Positions 8,691 to 38,800 of a stretch of DNA of 64,000 bases are shown piece by piece (position 1 is the first letter of the stretch; each line of letters begins with the position of its first letter). The notes below the pieces were generated by a model. That model was not told the DNA's origin and made no database searches. It worked only from the letters and a program-made list of their open reading frames with translations. The stretch is from contig NC_090968.1 in the NCBI RefSeq assembly GCF_040807025.1, positions 5,879,906 through 5,943,905 on the forward strand, written 5' to 3'. Source of the stretch: Struthio camelus (lineage: Eukaryota; Chordata; Aves; Struthioniformes; Struthionidae). A program made the position numbers and the translations under genes.

Positions 8691-8726
8691 TGAAAAGGTT
8701 GTAGCAACAGTGAGATGCATATTTCT

Positions 8727-8732
8727 TTTATT
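8727..8732 (-). terminator. Candidate polyadenylation signal AATAAA
   Basis: The minus strand reads TTTAATAAAAG. The array and the region from its left end to this point contain no earlier AATAAA or ATTAAA on the minus strand. A T/GT-containing stretch follows at about 8,690-8,715, where cleavage would be expected. This places the 3' end of the predicted repeat RNA near 8,705. Confidence 0.45.
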
Positions 8733-8821
8733 AAATCTGAGTGTGATGAACATAGTGTGAGCTTGTGTGCGTACTGCATGGAGCAAGCCACAAACACAGA
8801 AGTGCAGGTGCTGTTTCAGAG

Positions 8822-8831
8822 CCTGAAACAA
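8822..8831 (-). other. Candidate 3' splice site of the repeat RNA
   Basis: The minus strand reads TTGTTTCAG and then GCTC, a fair acceptor with a modest pyrimidine tract; the exon would begin at 8,822. It lies between the array and the AATAAA, so any donor-like GTGAGTA in the array could join to it and give a terminal exon of about 115 nt. Splicing is a prediction only. Confidence 0.3.
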
Positions 8832-9599
8832 CATATAGGTGATGGCAGGCGAGGCAGCCCAAGGCACAACTTGCTTGCAGCACTTTGCTCTCCTGCCCCA
8901 GGATTCCATTTGTTTCAAAGGCAGGACTGCAGCTCTTCTAACCTGCTATTGGACACCCTAGCCAGCACACCCACCCTCCCGCAACACATACTCACCCACA
9001 CAGGGCACAGCCCCACCTCCTTCCCCCCCAAGGGGGCTTCTTCACTCGAGACTAGCCTTGACAAAGGCTGCCCAGCACCTTCAAGCCTTGACAAAGGCTG
9101 CCCAGGCTTCTTCTGCCCGAGGCACCAGCCCTCAGTGATTTCAGCTCTTTTAGGCCCACCATCGCGCACCCTAGCCAGCACACCCACCCTCCCGCAACAC
9201 ATACTCACCCACACAGGGCACAGCCCCACCTCCTTCCCCCCCAAGGGTCTTCTTCACTCGAGACTAGCCTTGACAAAGGCTGCCCAGCACCTTCAAGCCT
9301 TGACAAAGGCTGCCCAGGCTTCTTCTGCCCGAGGCACCAGCCCTCAGTGATTTCAGCTCTTTTAGGCCCACCATCGCGCACCCTAGCCAGCACACCCACC
9401 CTCCCGCAACACATACTCACCCACACAGGGCACAGCCCCACCTCCTTCCCCCCCAAGGGTCTTCTTCACTCGAGACTAGCCTTGACAAAGGCTGCCCAGC
9501 ACCTTCAAGCCTTGACAAAGGCTGCCCAGGCTTCTTCTGCCCGAGGCACCAGCCCTCAGTGATTTCAGCTCTTTTAGGCCCCCCCCCCCCCCATTGCGC

Positions 9600-10089
9600 A
9601 CCCTAACTCCACACAGAACACACATGGCCAAGTTCAACCCCCATATACATGCAGACACACACACAGCCTCAGACCAACTCAGTTCACGTATGTTGACACT
9701 CACCATAGACACACACCCAAGACTCCCAATCCTGCACCACCAGGCAGGCAGGCAGGACACAAGCAGCCCACCCCAGAGCAGGCCTGTATCCCAGGGTACC
9801 TCAGCTGCCCACCTGCCACCCCACAAGCCACCCCTGCTGCCAAGAGCCAGGCCACCCACTAGTGACTGCTCCCACATCCTGGCAGAACAAGTACTCACCT
9901 ACCTGCCACTCCCCAGTGCCACAAGGCACAGCCCCACCTCCTTCCCCCCCAAGGGGGGCTTCTTCACTCGAGACTAGCCTTGACAAAGGCTGCCCAGCAC
10001 CTTCAAGCCTTGACAAAGGCTGCCCAGGCTTCTTCTGCCCGAGGCACCAGCCCTCAGTGATTTCAGCTCTTTTAGGCCCACCATCGCGC
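9600..10089. repeat. Long (490 bp) array unit, copy 1
   Basis: The left part of the short unit is replaced by a longer stretch, preceded by a run of 14 C. That stretch contains CA-rich DNA, a GGCA tetranucleotide run and two minus-strand donor-like motifs: GTGAGTG (plus-strand ACTCAC at 9,698-9,703) and GTGAGTA (9,893-9,898). From GGCACAGCCCC onward it matches the short unit. Short units may derive from this form by internal deletion. Confidence 0.95.
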
Positions 10090-10310
10090 ACCCTAGCCAG
10101 CACACCCACCCTCCCGCAACACATACTCACCCACACAGGGCACAGCCCCACCTCCTTCCCCCCCAAGGGGGCTTCTTCACTCGAGACTAGCCTTGACAAA
10201 GGCTGCCCAGCACCTTCAAGCCTTGACAAAGGCTGCCCAGGCTTCTTCTGCCCGAGGCACCAGCCCTCAGTGATTTCAGCTCTTTTAGGCCCCCCCCCCC
10301 CCCATTGCGC

Positions 10311-10800
10311 ACCCTAACTCCACACAGAACACACATGGCCAAGTTCAACCCCCATATACATGCAGACACACACACAGCCTCAGACCAACTCAGTTCACGT
10401 ATGTTGACACTCACCATAGACACACACCCAAGACTCCCAATCCTGCACCACCAGGCAGGCAGGCAGGACACAAGCAGCCCACCCCAGAGCAGGCCTGTAT
10501 CCCAGGGTACCTCAGCTGCCCACCTGCCACCCCACAAGCCACCCCTGCTGCCAAGAGCCAGGCCACCCACTAGTGACTGCTCCCACATCCTGGCAGAACA
10601 AGTACTCACCTACCTGCCACTCCCCAGTGCCACAAGGCACAGCCCCACCTCCTTCCCCCCCAAGGGGGGCTTCTTCACTCGAGACTAGCCTTGACAAAGG
10701 CTGCCCAGCACCTTCAAGCCTTGACAAAGGCTGCCCAGGCTTCTTCTGCCCGAGGCACCAGCCCTCAGTGATTTCAGCTCTTTTAGGCCCACCATCGCGC
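10311..10800. repeat. Long (490 bp) array unit, copy 2
   Basis: Same structure as the copy at 9,600, again after a run of 14 C. The start-to-start distance is 711 bp, which equals one long unit plus one short unit with its C tract. This suggests the pair was duplicated as a block. Confidence 0.95.
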
Positions 10801-11869
10801 ACCCTAGCCAGCACACCCACCCTCCCGCAACACATACTCACCCACACAGGGCACAGCCCCACCTCCTTCCCCCCCAAGGGGGGCTTCTTCACTCGAGACT
10901 AGCCTTGACAAAGGCTGCCCAGCACCTTCAAGCCTTGACAAAGGCTGCCCAGGCTTCTTCTGCCCGAGGCACCAGCCCTCAGTGATTTCAGCTCTTTTAG
11001 GCCCACCATCGCGCACCCTAGCCAGCACACCCACCCTCCCGCAACACATACTCACCCACACAGGGCACAGCCCCACCTCCTTCCCCCCCAAGGGTCTTCT
11101 TCACTCGAGACTAGCCTTGACAAAGGCTGCCCAGCACCTTCAAGCCTTGACAAAGGCTGCCCAGGCTTCTTCTGCCCGAGGCACCAGCCCTCAGTGATTT
11201 CAGCTCTTTTAGGCCCACCATCGCGCACCCTAGCCAGCACACCCACCCTCCCGCAACACATACTCACCCACACAGGGCACAGCCCCACCTCCTTCCCCCC
11301 CAAGGGTCTTCTTCACTCGAGACTAGCCTTGACAAAGGCTGCCCAGCACCTTCAAGCCTTGACAAAGGCTGCCCAGGCTTCTTCTGCCCGAGGCACCAGC
11401 CCTCAGTGATTTCAGCTCTTTTAGGCCCACCATCGCGCACCCTAGCCAGCACACCCACCCTCCCGCAACACATACTCACCCACACAGGGCACAGCCCCAC
11501 CTCCTTCCCCCCCAAGGGTCTTCTTCACTCGAGACTAGCCTTGACAAAGGCTGCCCAGCACCTTCAAGCCTTGACAAAGGCTGCCCAGGCTTCTTCTGCC
11601 CGAGGCACCAGCCCTCAGTGATTTCAGCTCTTTTAGGCCCACCATCGCGCACCCTAGCCAGCACACCCACCCTCCCGCAACACATACTCACCCACACAGG
11701 GCACAGCCCCACCTCCTTCCCCCCCAAGGGGGCTTCTTCACTCGAGACTAGCCTTGACAAAGGCTGCCCAGCACCTTCAAGCCTTGACAAAGGCTGCCCA
11801 GGCTTCTTCTGCCCGAGGCACCAGCCCTCAGTGATTTCAGCTCTTTTAGGCCCCCCCCCCCCATTGCGC

Positions 11870-12359
11870 ACCCTAACTCCACACAGAACACACATGGCCA
11901 AGTTCAACCCCCATATACATGCAGACACACACACAGCCTCAGACCAACTCAGTTCACGTATGTTGACACTCACCATAGACACACACCCAAGACTCCCAAT
12001 CCTGCACCACCAGGCAGGCAGGCAGGACACAAGCAGCCCACCCCAGAGCAGGCCTGTATCCCAGGGTACCTCAGCTGCCCACCTGCCACCCCACAAGCCA
12101 CCCCTGCTGCCAAGAGCCAGGCCACCCACTAGTGACTGCTCCCACATCCTGGCAGAACAAGTACTCACCTACCTGCCACTCCCCAGTGCCACAAGGCACA
12201 GCCCCACCTCCTTCCCCCCCAAGGGGGGCTTCTTCACTCGAGACTAGCCTTGACAAAGGCTGCCCAGCACCTTCAAGCCTTGACAAAGGCTGCCCAGGCT
12301 TCTTCTGCCCGAGGCACCAGCCCTCAGTGATTTCAGCTCTTTTAGGCCCACCATCGCGC
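11870..12359. repeat. Long (490 bp) array unit, copy 3
   Basis: Same structure as the other long units, with a preceding run of 12 C instead of 14. It lies 1,559 bp after copy 2, which fits one long and five short units. Both minus-strand donor-like motifs are retained. Confidence 0.95.
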
Positions 12360-12813
12360 ACCCTAGCCAGCACACCCACCCTCCCGCAACACATACTCAC
12401 CCACACAGGGCACAGCCCCACCTCCTTCCCCCCCAAGGGGGGCTTCTTCACTCGAGACTAGCCTTGACAAAGGCTGCCCAGCACCTTCAAGCCTTGACAA
12501 AGGCTGCCCAGGCTTCTTCTGCCCGAGGCACCAGCCCTCAGTGATTTCAGCTCTTTTAGGCCCACCATCGCGCACCTTAGCCAGCACACCCACCCTCCCG
12601 CAACACATACTCACCCACACAGGGCACAGCCCCACCTCCTTCCCCCCCAAGGGGGCTTCTTCACTCGAGACTAGCCTTGACAAAGGCTGCCCAGCACCTT
12701 CAAGCCTTGACAAAGGCTGCCCAGGCTTCTTCTGCCCGAAGCGCCGAGCCGCTGCACTCCCACTCTTCTCGTCTTCTCCCGTCAAACAAAACACCACTTC
12801 CGGCACATGCCCC

Positions 12814-12820
12814 TTTTATA
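12814..12820 (-). promoter_or_regulatory. TATA box (TATAAAA)
   Basis: The minus strand reads GGCTATAAAAGGGG, a near-ideal TATA box with GC-rich flanks. It lies in an otherwise CpG-rich promoter and fixes the direction as leftward, with a start expected near 12,790. Confidence 0.6.
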
Positions 12821-12950
12821 GCCAAGCCGCCTCAGGCCCTCAGACCGCTCGTGCTCAGTGATTGGTGGGCTGCCTGGACCCCCCCCGCTCTCATTGGTCC
12901 GTCATTAGCATGCGGCCCTGCCCGCCGGCGGCCGCGCGGCCCCGCCTTCC

Positions 12951-12964
12951 TTCTGGAACGTTCC
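12951..12964. promoter_or_regulatory. Heat-shock element, three perfect pentamers
   Basis: TTCTGGAACGTTCC contains TTC, GAA and TTC at exact 5-bp spacing, the minimal high-affinity site for an HSF trimer. By base counting, such a 9-base match is expected about 0.5 times by chance in 64 kb over both strands, but only about 0.003 times in a 350-bp promoter. Position in the promoter is therefore the main support. Confidence 0.6.
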
Positions 12965-13075
12965 TGCCTGAGGGACGGCCGCCGCTCCCCGGTCACGTGC
13001 TCGCCTTCCGCCAATCGTTTTAAACTGTGGCGGCGGGAGGTTCCCGCCGGCCCCGCGGGGTCACGTGGAGGGCAG

Positions 13076-13320
13076 CGTGATTGACACCTCCTGCAACACC
13101 CGTTTGCCTCGCTTTTCCCCTGGCCCAAACCTGCCCTGGCACCGCCCATTGGATGGCGGTGAACTGATTACGTCCTCGGATGAGGTACAGGAGTGTGAGG
13201 TGCCCCATATGTCTCTGTCCCTACGGGCAGGCCGGCGTTGCGGCTCCGTCCCCCCACCGGCAGCCTTCTCGGCCGACGGATTGGGCCGCTCGGCCGCGAT
13301 AATTCCTCCTCTGTCTACAG
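13076..13320. promoter_or_regulatory. Right part of the CpG island
   Basis: CpG density stays high to about 13,300, with a further ATTGG at 13,148-13,152 beside a GC box, and GATTACGTCC near 13,165. If the island is bidirectional, a plus-strand transcript would start here. No convincing first exon or coding frame is visible on that side. Confidence 0.4.
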
Positions 13321-13560
13321 CATAGCAAATTTTCAACATCTGATATCTGGGAGAGCACCCTGGACTTTAATTATATCTTATTTTGCAGCTGCACTCAATT
13401 CCTGCTACAGCTTAATAAACAGGTTGCATGAGCCGCGAACGTATTTTGTTAATTTTCCTCGGGAAAATTGAGTTTTTACTGCCATTTTGGCAGTAAAATG
13501 CTTATCATAACAATTATGACAAAGTGGTGAGAAATTGAAAACATCTGCAGCAACAAACTT
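13321..13560. promoter_or_regulatory. AT-rich block with two adjacent perfect hairpins
   Basis: The stretch is rich in TAATTA-like cores and CAGCTG. It contains two inverted repeats side by side: AATTTTCC / GGAAAATT with loop TCG (13,451-13,469), and TTTTACTGCCA / TGGCAGTAAAA with loop TTT (13,474-13,498). Both are perfect. The block looks like a conserved element next to the CpG island. Confidence 0.35.
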
Positions 13561-36700: not shown

Positions 36701-38800
36701 GACACTGCAAGAGAGCCCACAAGTACTTTAGAACAAGGACTAAGCAGATGAGAAGGGGGAAAAGTGTTTTGCCTGAGACCACCCAAAGCCAAGAACAGGA
36801 CCAAAGCCAGCAGCTACTTCTGCCAGCTCACGGCGAGCACAAAAGCACTAAACCGTGCTCTGTCCCTTGCCGAGAACAGGCAGCAAAATCTGTCCGTCCC
36901 CACCTCTACGACCTCGTGCAATGATCTTTTCAGCTTTGGTTTTCTAATTTATCACTTCAAATAAGATGGACCCACCTGAGAGGATATAAAGCTTTACTGC
37001 AGGGTGAGCAATTTACATTAAAAAAATTTAAATCACTGAAGAGATCCAGACATACCAAAGCAGCTTCCCCCCCCCCCCCCCACCTCAGATCGGTTTGAGG
37101 CTGGAGTGGCTCTGCAGCCTGGCTTTTTAATCCAGGCCTCAACCAGCCTCTGCTCAGGGACTGGTTTCAGCCGTGGCAGCTGCCCAGACATCCCTTCGCC
37201 TGGCTGTTTTGGGGCACAGCACCCCAATTTGAGTGCGCTTGTGCAGCCAGACTGCAACCAGCAGAGAGCAGTGGAGGCTAAGGACAGCCGGCTCTGGAGC
37301 TGAACAGTCAGAGCAAAACATCCTGCCAGCCCCAAAACGAGACTCATCCACCCGAGACCAGCAGCAAGCAGCACCTTCTTCATGCCAGGACCCCGGCGAG
37401 TCTCCTCCACACACCTTCTCCTAAGAGGACAGCGTTTTGCTGGGTTTCCCACATTAGTCTCAGCCCCCTCCAAGGCTTTGTGCTCATTAACCGCCCAGTT
37501 ACACAGTGCGGCCGAGCAAAGCAGTGCCTAGCAGAGCTCAGGAGCCGGACCAAGCAGGCCAAAACAGCCCTCCTGCCCCTGAGACCCTGCTGCCCCGAGC
37601 GCTTTTCAGGCACGAACTCCCCGTGAGCAGGAGAGCGCGGCGTGGTTCCCACGAGCGCGTTGAGTTGAGGATTCCCCCAGTGCTAATAAAAGGGGGAGAT
37701 TACTAGACCGTGCCGATGCAGGGTAGGCGAGAGGGGCCTTATTCCCCGCTCAGCGGCCTGATTTCACAGAATCTGCAGCAAGTTGGTATCTTGGGGGTGT
37801 TTCTCCACCTACCAAACATGATCAAAACCAAACAGCTATGATACCTCTTGAGCTGCCATTGGTTACCTGCAACACAGCTGTCACATCTCCCTTTTCTGTC
37901 CTCTGGAAAGGATTAGGAAAGCAGCCAGGAGGAGGGTTTGCCTCTCTGTTTCTAGCTTATTTTTTCCCCTGGGCTGTTAATTGGAGAATGACACCCACAC
38001 ACAGGTGACTCTGGATAGCTCTATAGTGCCATGGGAGGTGTAACTGCAAGACATACAGTCCTAGGCATACATGCTTTAATCTAATGAGATACAAAACACC
38101 AGTAAACCAGGTCAGAAACAGAGCGAGACAGCACCAGGCTGCTCAGGAGCTCCTGCATGAGCCCATCCTGAGAAAGGCTTATTTAACCCCAAACAGCCCC
38201 TGCAGGCTTGTGCCCCAGGCACCAGGGGACTGAAGAGCAGGCTGCTCGAGGGCTTTTCCCCCAGCACTGAGCAGCTGTCTCTCTCTCTTTCATTTCAGCT
38301 AAGAAAGTCCAGTAACAGCTCCACAAAACCATCTCCTCTGCAGCAGGAACAGTCACCTACAGCCCCAACTGCACCCCTTAGCCAGAGCTGATAATCAGTT
38401 TTTATCTCAGACATCTCCAGCTGCCCAGGAAAGGTCAGAGCACCTTTGCCTCCCTTGGAGGAAGAGGATCTCAGCCGTCCCCATACCTGGCCTACATGCA
38501 CGGAGCCTAGCACAGGCCACCATGGCCATTTCCCTAATCCCCAAATTATCCTCCTAGACTCCTGCTGCACCCCCTGAGAAAATCAGCTCAGATCTCAGCT
38601 CCTCCCCAGCTTCCGCCTCATGCATCTTTCCCAGAGCAACCTTGGCTTTCTTCAGGCTCTTACCTTTCCCTGCTCCCGACTTCCCATCCACTCCAAAGCC
38701 CTCCCTGCCCCTCCGGAGCTCCTTTATGAGCTCTCCCAGCCGGCACCACCCTCAGCTGCTCCCCAGGTGCCCGGAGTCTCACTGATCGCCCTCTGGTCCC
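33780..38800. other. Gene-free stretch
   Basis: No gene is recognised. A run of about 15 C lies at 37,067-37,081. GCCATTGGTTACC near 37,857 sits in a conserved-looking patch (37,740-38,110). Small hairpin arms AGCTCCCA / TGGGAGCT lie near 33,840. Open frames are short. Confidence 0.35.

Follow-up and report, generated by a model that had tools for sequence, protein, structure and literature searches.

A putative heat-shock-type promoter from a long terminal repeat faces a homogeneous tandem array in the ostrich genome

To describe an unusual repeat locus of the ostrich, we analyzed a 64,000-nucleotide stretch of the Struthio camelus genome (assembly GCF_040807025.1, contig NC_090968.1, positions 5,879,906 to 5,943,905 of the forward strand; hereafter, the window). 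Near its left end, a set of promoter motifs with a perfect heat-shock element (HSE) faces a homogeneous tandem array on the minus strand (Table 1). The Drosophila hsr-omega gene is laid out in the same manner, with a promoter followed by a tandem array, and a first-pass annotation of the window had proposed a heat-shock-inducible repeat RNA gene at this place. The individual elements that it named are all present: the TATA box, two CCAAT boxes, and HSE pointing into the array, the array itself (given as 3.8 kb), and the first AATAAA just past it. The extent of 8705 to 13075 that it assigned to the gene includes the array and the motifs but ends too early on the right, where the limit should be at about 13142, the 5′ end of a long terminal repeat (LTR) of the endogenous retrovirus (ERV) type. 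A third CCAAT, at 13152 to 13148, lies outside the LTR. From the spacing of the TATA box, transcription would be expected to start near position 12788.

Table 1. Array, promoter, and associated motifs in the window
Feature	Position	Strand	Basis or remark
Array of 14 units, each with an LTR-derived core and two short hairpins	8954..12739	-	3.79 kb; 20-bp core, twice per unit
U3 promoter and start of R, ERV-type LTR	12740..13142	-	Blast to LTR copies L013 and L009; family ends and duplications
Block around the HSE, near-identical to paralogous LTR L009	12903..13016	-	2 differences in 114 columns
HSE GAAnnTTCnnGAA	12951..12963	-	Perfect heat-shock element
CCAAT box 1	12893..12897	-	Motif; intact in 10/29 copies
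CCAAT box 2	12861..12865	-	Motif; intact in 22/29 copies
TATA box TATAAAA	12814..12820	-	Motif; intact in 13/29 copies
Splice-donor-like GTGAGTA, 14 copies, one per unit	8989..12614	-	Motif scan
First AATAAA past the array	8727..8732	-	About 220 nt beyond the array
CpG-island-like segment over the LTR promoter	12651..13400	.	CpG observed/expected 0.82 versus 0.23 in the array; weak evidence

A genome DNA search with the promoter as query identifies a second locus on the same contig (C27, 8.0 Mb long), 87% identical and 1.06 Mb away, together with weaker matches on several contigs. Candidate LTRs were gathered by a search of the 1.45-Gb genome with one promoter-related locus as query, and scoring 40 of the 242 first-look candidates yielded 48 matches. 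The starts of these matches are sharply clustered: of the 47 matches other than the self-match, 35 start at query positions 235 to 243 and three at 227 or 251, and nine are later pieces. Thirty copies were fetched and 26 could be judged at both ends, with three lacking a 3′ end in the alignment and one having an unclear end. The 26 copies measure 1,091 to 1,277 bp and have TGTCA-like and TGACA-like ends. They are flanked by a 5-bp target-site duplication that is exact in 9 copies (0/650 in cross-copy controls) and matches at four or more of the five positions in 15 (13/650 in controls). Two same-flank pairs on C41 and C40, L028/L030 and L048/L049, reduce this sample to 24 independent insertion sites, and none of these four copies has an exact duplication; the end of L041, which is still counted, was placed doubtfully by our script. 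Judged by these shared ends and duplications, the dispersed relatives are LTRs of an ERV-type element, and the flank listings suggest that the 26 copies are solo LTRs. Duplications of 5 bp are typical of ERVL and would suggest this class for the family, an assignment that is unproven.

Within the window, Blast aligns L013 to positions 13142 to 12941 (66% identity, E value of 4e-11) and L009, the second C27 locus, to positions 13134 to 12703 (87% identity). Because the dispersed copies share sharp ends and 5-bp duplications, the "promoter" of the locus is best read as the U3 region of an ERV-type LTR. All four promoter motifs are intact in only 5 of 29 distinct copies, namely, the window copy, L009, L018, L026, and L033. 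The window copy also has the highest U3 CpG count of the 29 (32, compared to 31 in L048, 28 in L009, and 1 to 24 in the others), in a window that is CpG-rich as a whole. We considered the CpG island as proof of promoter activity and dropped it, as there are 33 such segments in the window.

The HSE pattern alone is common by chance in 64 kb: one occurrence is found, 0.40 to 0.59 are expected, and 36 to 43 of 100 shuffles contain at least one. It rises above chance because other LTR copies have it at the corresponding position. For this comparison, 34 oriented copies including that of the window were aligned, and L030, L037, L039, L045, and L049, each more than 95% identical to another copy, were dropped to leave 29 distinct copies. 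Of these, 18 have a perfect HSE, 10 have one mismatch, and 1 has three. Since the copies were picked by their likeness to the window or L013, both of which have a perfect HSE, this choice may favor HSE-bearing copies. L019 was fetched and left out of the alignment, and its place has an exact extended HSE in the genome match list. Genome-wide, the extended site GAANNTTCCAGAAGGAAGG has at least 60 exact matches per strand (at least 120 in total) and its reversed control has none on either strand; these counts concern the site alone, irrespective of the rest of the LTR, and, being equal on the two strands, are lower bounds. Further, the majority frequency averages 0.947 over the nine fixed HSE columns, compared to 0.882 for the other U3 columns (27 copies, with the C27 pair excluded), a value reached by 2.7% of random nine-column sets. 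As its recurrence indicates, the HSE belongs to the LTR family and not to the window copy alone.

The array consists of repeated units whose 13 spacings, counted from the promoter side, are 213, 214, 496, 213, 212, 212, 212, 214, 498, 213, 498, 212, and 212 bp, so that ten are of 212 to 214 bp and three, which carry a long insert, are of 496 to 498 bp. Tandem Repeats Finder divides it into three blocks with 99% matches. Within the approximately 180 bp compared, the 14 units share an uninterrupted run of 84 identical alignment columns, and their mean identity is 0.967 without the promoter-proximal unit, a figure from a script with rough gap handling. The remaining differences are in the length of a G run, in the junctions of short versus long units, and at the promoter-proximal end, with one substitution seen by eye near 12577. 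Similarly, the three long inserts are identical at 335/335 or 335/336 aligned positions. We infer that the array is very young or undergoing homogenization. The unit core, 80 to 111 bp long, aligns at 76 to 81% identity with the part of the LTR copies that directly follows their expected transcription start site. The promoter and the array core are of common LTR origin, and their arrangement is not one of chance, which corrects the first reading of the locus. The array appears to be confined to this locus: with all 31 candidates of an array query scored, the window alone matches over more than about 110 bp. A scan for second arrays at loci L009 to L049 found only two repeats with a period of at least 40 bp, a 42-bp double inside the L036 LTR and a 42-bp triple outside the L011 LTR.

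The closest relative of the window LTR is L009. Their U3 regions are 93.5% identical (303/324 aligned columns), whereas the other 27 distinct copies are at most 71.2% identical to the window, and no further close U3 match to L009 was found among the 40 of 185 genome candidates that were scored. Outside the LTR, a comparison of 15 kb around the window locus with 9.9 kb of L009 gave no match longer than 60 bp. The longest identical run shared by the two copies is 104 columns, a length reached in 83 of 20,000 column shuffles. Between the two copies, 2 of 114 columns are different in the block around the HSE, compared to 14 of 122 in the distal U3 (Fisher P = 0.003), and the resulting divergence ratio of 0.15 is below those of all 351 other pairs (0.68 to 2.69). 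This test concerns a single pair, the 351 pairs used as reference are interdependent, and the block was defined after the identical run had been noticed. The likeness of the pair in this block suggests either constraint or gene conversion. The U3 of the window copy also has two CACGTG E-boxes, at 12994 to 12999 and 13062 to 13067, of which the first is kept in L009 and the second is not. About 1.2 kb upstream of its LTR, L009 has a separate 30-bp tandem array (L009:2517-3063, 18.3 copies, 93% matches).

The predicted transcript of the array would be non-coding. Eight of the 13 unit spacings are not divisible by three, and none of 30 open reading frames (ORFs) tested, out of 453 listed with at least 70 amino acids, matched Pfam at thresholds of E = 0.01, 0.1, and 0.1. 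These 30 include ORFs of the array and those of the plus strand across the promoter, where a rightward protein gene had been named in the first-pass annotation as an alternative cause of the promoter. Spacings and Pfam results together speak against a protein-coding array. Likewise, neither the window nor any of 11 related loci contains an Rfam family at the gathering score. The sense strand of the array is 42% G and 23% T, with three G runs of 12 to 14 and no G-quadruplex by the strict pattern. It holds 23 splice donor sites with a score of at least 8, whereas the antisense strand has none and dinucleotide shuffling of the sense sequence (100 rounds) yields 11.5 on average and 18 at most. A simple pyrimidine rule identifies no acceptor-like site in the sense array, and poly(A) signals of the form AATAAA or ATTAAA are absent from it. 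Among 26 full LTR copies, 13 have an exact GTGAGTA in R and 10 have it with one mismatch, whereas L023, L032, and L034 lack it; L009 has it only as a one-mismatch match elsewhere in its LTR. The motif was probably present in the LTR ancestor. The pairs of the twin hairpins are kept in 25 to 28 of 28 to 29 copies for hairpin 1 and in 17 to 22 of 22 to 23 for hairpin 2, and nearly all changes are one-sided, leaving the hairpins with slight support.

Taken together, these observations can be accommodated in the following model. By homology, the locus is an old ERV LTR with an HSE of its own in U3, next to two CCAAT boxes and a TATA box. The 3′ part of the LTR is now missing or unrecognizable, and a segment with the 5′ transcribed core has expanded into 14 units, recently if the near identity of the units reflects their age. 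Under stress, HSF1 or another avian heat-shock factor (HSF) would bind the HSE, and an RNA would start at the expected position and extend leftward across the array for about 4 kb, as far as the AATAAA at 8732. Such an RNA would be non-coding and rich in G, and every unit of it would contain a 5′ splice site; because each unit has a donor and no acceptor or poly(A) signal is recognized inside, it would probably bind U1 small nuclear ribonucleoprotein (snRNP) and stay nuclear. We consider it somewhat probable that a heat-shock-type LTR promoter here feeds a young repeat array and gives rise to a non-coding RNA of unproven role, and the HSE blocks of the two C27 loci are so alike as to hint at constraint on the promoter itself. 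Of the heat-shock-inducible repeat RNA gene first proposed, what stands is a plausible HSF-type RNA polymerase II promoter directed into a one-strand array with no sign of coding; the idea of a free-standing gene does not.

Several observations weigh against this model. On the side of the array, no long-kept function can be read from it because its units are so homogeneous. Against 12 LTR copies, neither the 95-nt non-core part of the short unit (z = 0.6) nor the long insert (z = 2.0; observed score of 54, best of 40 shuffles 63) has significant LTR similarity, and the 3′ end of the LTR was not found left of the array in the window, so that the target-site duplication is established for the dispersed copies. 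The case for the promoter is tempered by the family alignment, where the 13-column HSE segment does not stand out (an equally high score is reached by 150 of 595 sliding windows). Local gene conversion could yield the conserved HSE block, and the leader/U3 contrast of the C27 pair, 5.05, barely exceeds that of other close pairs (at most 4.54 among the 351 distinct pairs and 4.75 with near-duplicates). As for the transcript, G-rich shuffles alone give about half of the donor count, and donor motifs copied with the unit amount to one or two events rather than 14. GTGAGTA is exact in only 13/26 full copies, and 7 of its 10 one-mismatch copies lose the donor's own G. Neither one unit nor the 5′ leader plus core is predicted to fold better than its shuffles (z = 0.91 and 0.56, respectively).

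The locus could instead be a silent relic, an inactive LTR beside a neutral minisatellite-like expansion that includes some of its own sequence, with no regulated transcript. The many dispersed LTR copies, the low CpG observed/expected ratio of the array (0.23, as expected for methylated DNA), the near-zero divergence of the units, as in neutral minisatellites, and the lack of an RNA structure signal all fit this explanation. It accounts less readily for a copy that keeps all four promoter motifs and the most U3 CpGs of the 29, and whose HSE block is unusually conserved with L009, and we regard it as possible, if doubtful. LTR-driven first exons are common in vertebrates, and here a first exon from the LTR might use a GTGAGTA donor to splice into a host gene whose exons lie further left on the minus strand, with the array as a by-product. 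A donor motif in every unit, exact in half of the full LTR copies, agrees with such an alternative promoter, but no coding sequence is recognized in the 30 ORFs tested within the window, and this explanation seems to us quite unlikely. A stronger special case of the model that we favor is an LTR-built counterpart of hsr-omega or satellite III, in which a stress-induced architectural RNA nucleates nuclear bodies. The HSE promoter, the array and its orientation, and the conserved HSE block agree with it, and there is a precedent in birds, where the tandem-repeat RNAs LL2R and PO41 form nuclear domains according to the available parts of the reports (PMC7151628, PMC4301066); against it stand the single locus of 14 units and the youth of the array, and we think it unlikely. 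As stated in the first-pass annotation, an independently evolved hsr-omega counterpart is not upheld: the promoter is one LTR of many and has its HSE from the LTR family, and the array appears very young. In its boldest form, this special case would have a bird lineage domesticate an ERV LTR that responds to heat shock and use it to drive a new architectural RNA, the R segment of the LTR with hairpins and donor arrayed so as to trap U1 snRNP or other RNA-binding proteins during stress. This third origin of an hsr-omega/satellite III-like system is likewise improbable.

For comparison with known systems, we rely on the accessible portions of the cited sources. ONSEN (ATCOPIA78), an LTR retrotransposon of Arabidopsis, has an HSF-bound element in its LTR (PMC3907296) and resembles the present family in having an LTR promoter with an HSF site across the whole family. 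ONSEN, however, is a plant Ty1/copia element with demonstrated heat induction and HSFA2 binding, whereas the ostrich LTR is of ERV type in a bird and its HSE is known from sequence. Helitrons of Caenorhabditis are likewise a transposable-element family that spreads HSEs but are nematode DNA transposons with demonstrated HSF-1 binding (PMC6927752). Human satellite III of the nuclear stress bodies shares with our locus an HSE, a tandem array, and a non-coding nuclear RNA, the last predicted here (PMC9530788, PMC9032817); satellite III is multi-locus, pericentric, HSF1-driven, and made of short units, whereas we find one LTR-fed locus of 14 units with a predicted transcript. Drosophila hsr-omega (93D) resembles our locus in being a single locus in which the promoter precedes the array, but it has known transcripts and a viability phenotype (PMC9530788), in contrast to an apparently recent array in an LTR with a predicted transcript. 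Satellite III bodies are reported only from primates and omega speckles only from Drosophila melanogaster (PMC9530788). The chicken lumpy-loop repeat LL2R and PO41 RNA are avian tandem-repeat non-coding RNAs whose transcription was seen on lampbrush chromosomes, and the available text on them mentions neither an HSE nor an LTR promoter (PMC7151628, PMC4301066). The ostrich locus matches none of these systems as the same object. Among the openly accessible papers listed in our searches, we found neither an avian LTR with an HSE nor a heat-shock repeat RNA in birds. If the LTR HSE works, at least 120 scattered exact extended HSF sites in one bird genome would be a ready source of heat-responsive promoters, comparable to ONSEN, and the array copy would offer a direct test of the birth of a stress-repeat RNA, with the retroviral promoter first and local amplification later.

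The survey also yielded observations on the LTR family and the window at large. L036 and L037 (C1:84.37 Mb) lie approximately 8.5 kb apart and are 99.7% identical over their first ~620 bases, each with its own exact 5-bp duplication, as could result if the family was recently active or if the copies had undergone conversion. L048/L049 and L028/L030 are the same insertions on C41 (89.9 Mb) and C40 (70.4 Mb), both pairs with an identity of 0.992 over the first ~620 bases, as would be expected of what we presume to be weakly differentiated Z and W chromosomes; the emu is a bird with largely homomorphic sex chromosomes, according to the available part of the source (PMC8310711). On C40, the presumed W contig, many LTR copies with an exact extended HSE are found at approximately 1.4 to 7.7 Mb, several of them equal-scoring, suggesting ampliconic spread. 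In the window itself, a minus-strand ORF at 37036 to 37527 has a hydrophobic stretch like a signal or membrane segment and no Pfam match. Finally, nine exact extended HSE sites, among the matches listed, fall within 3.6 Mb of C29, at 1.2 to 4.9 Mb.

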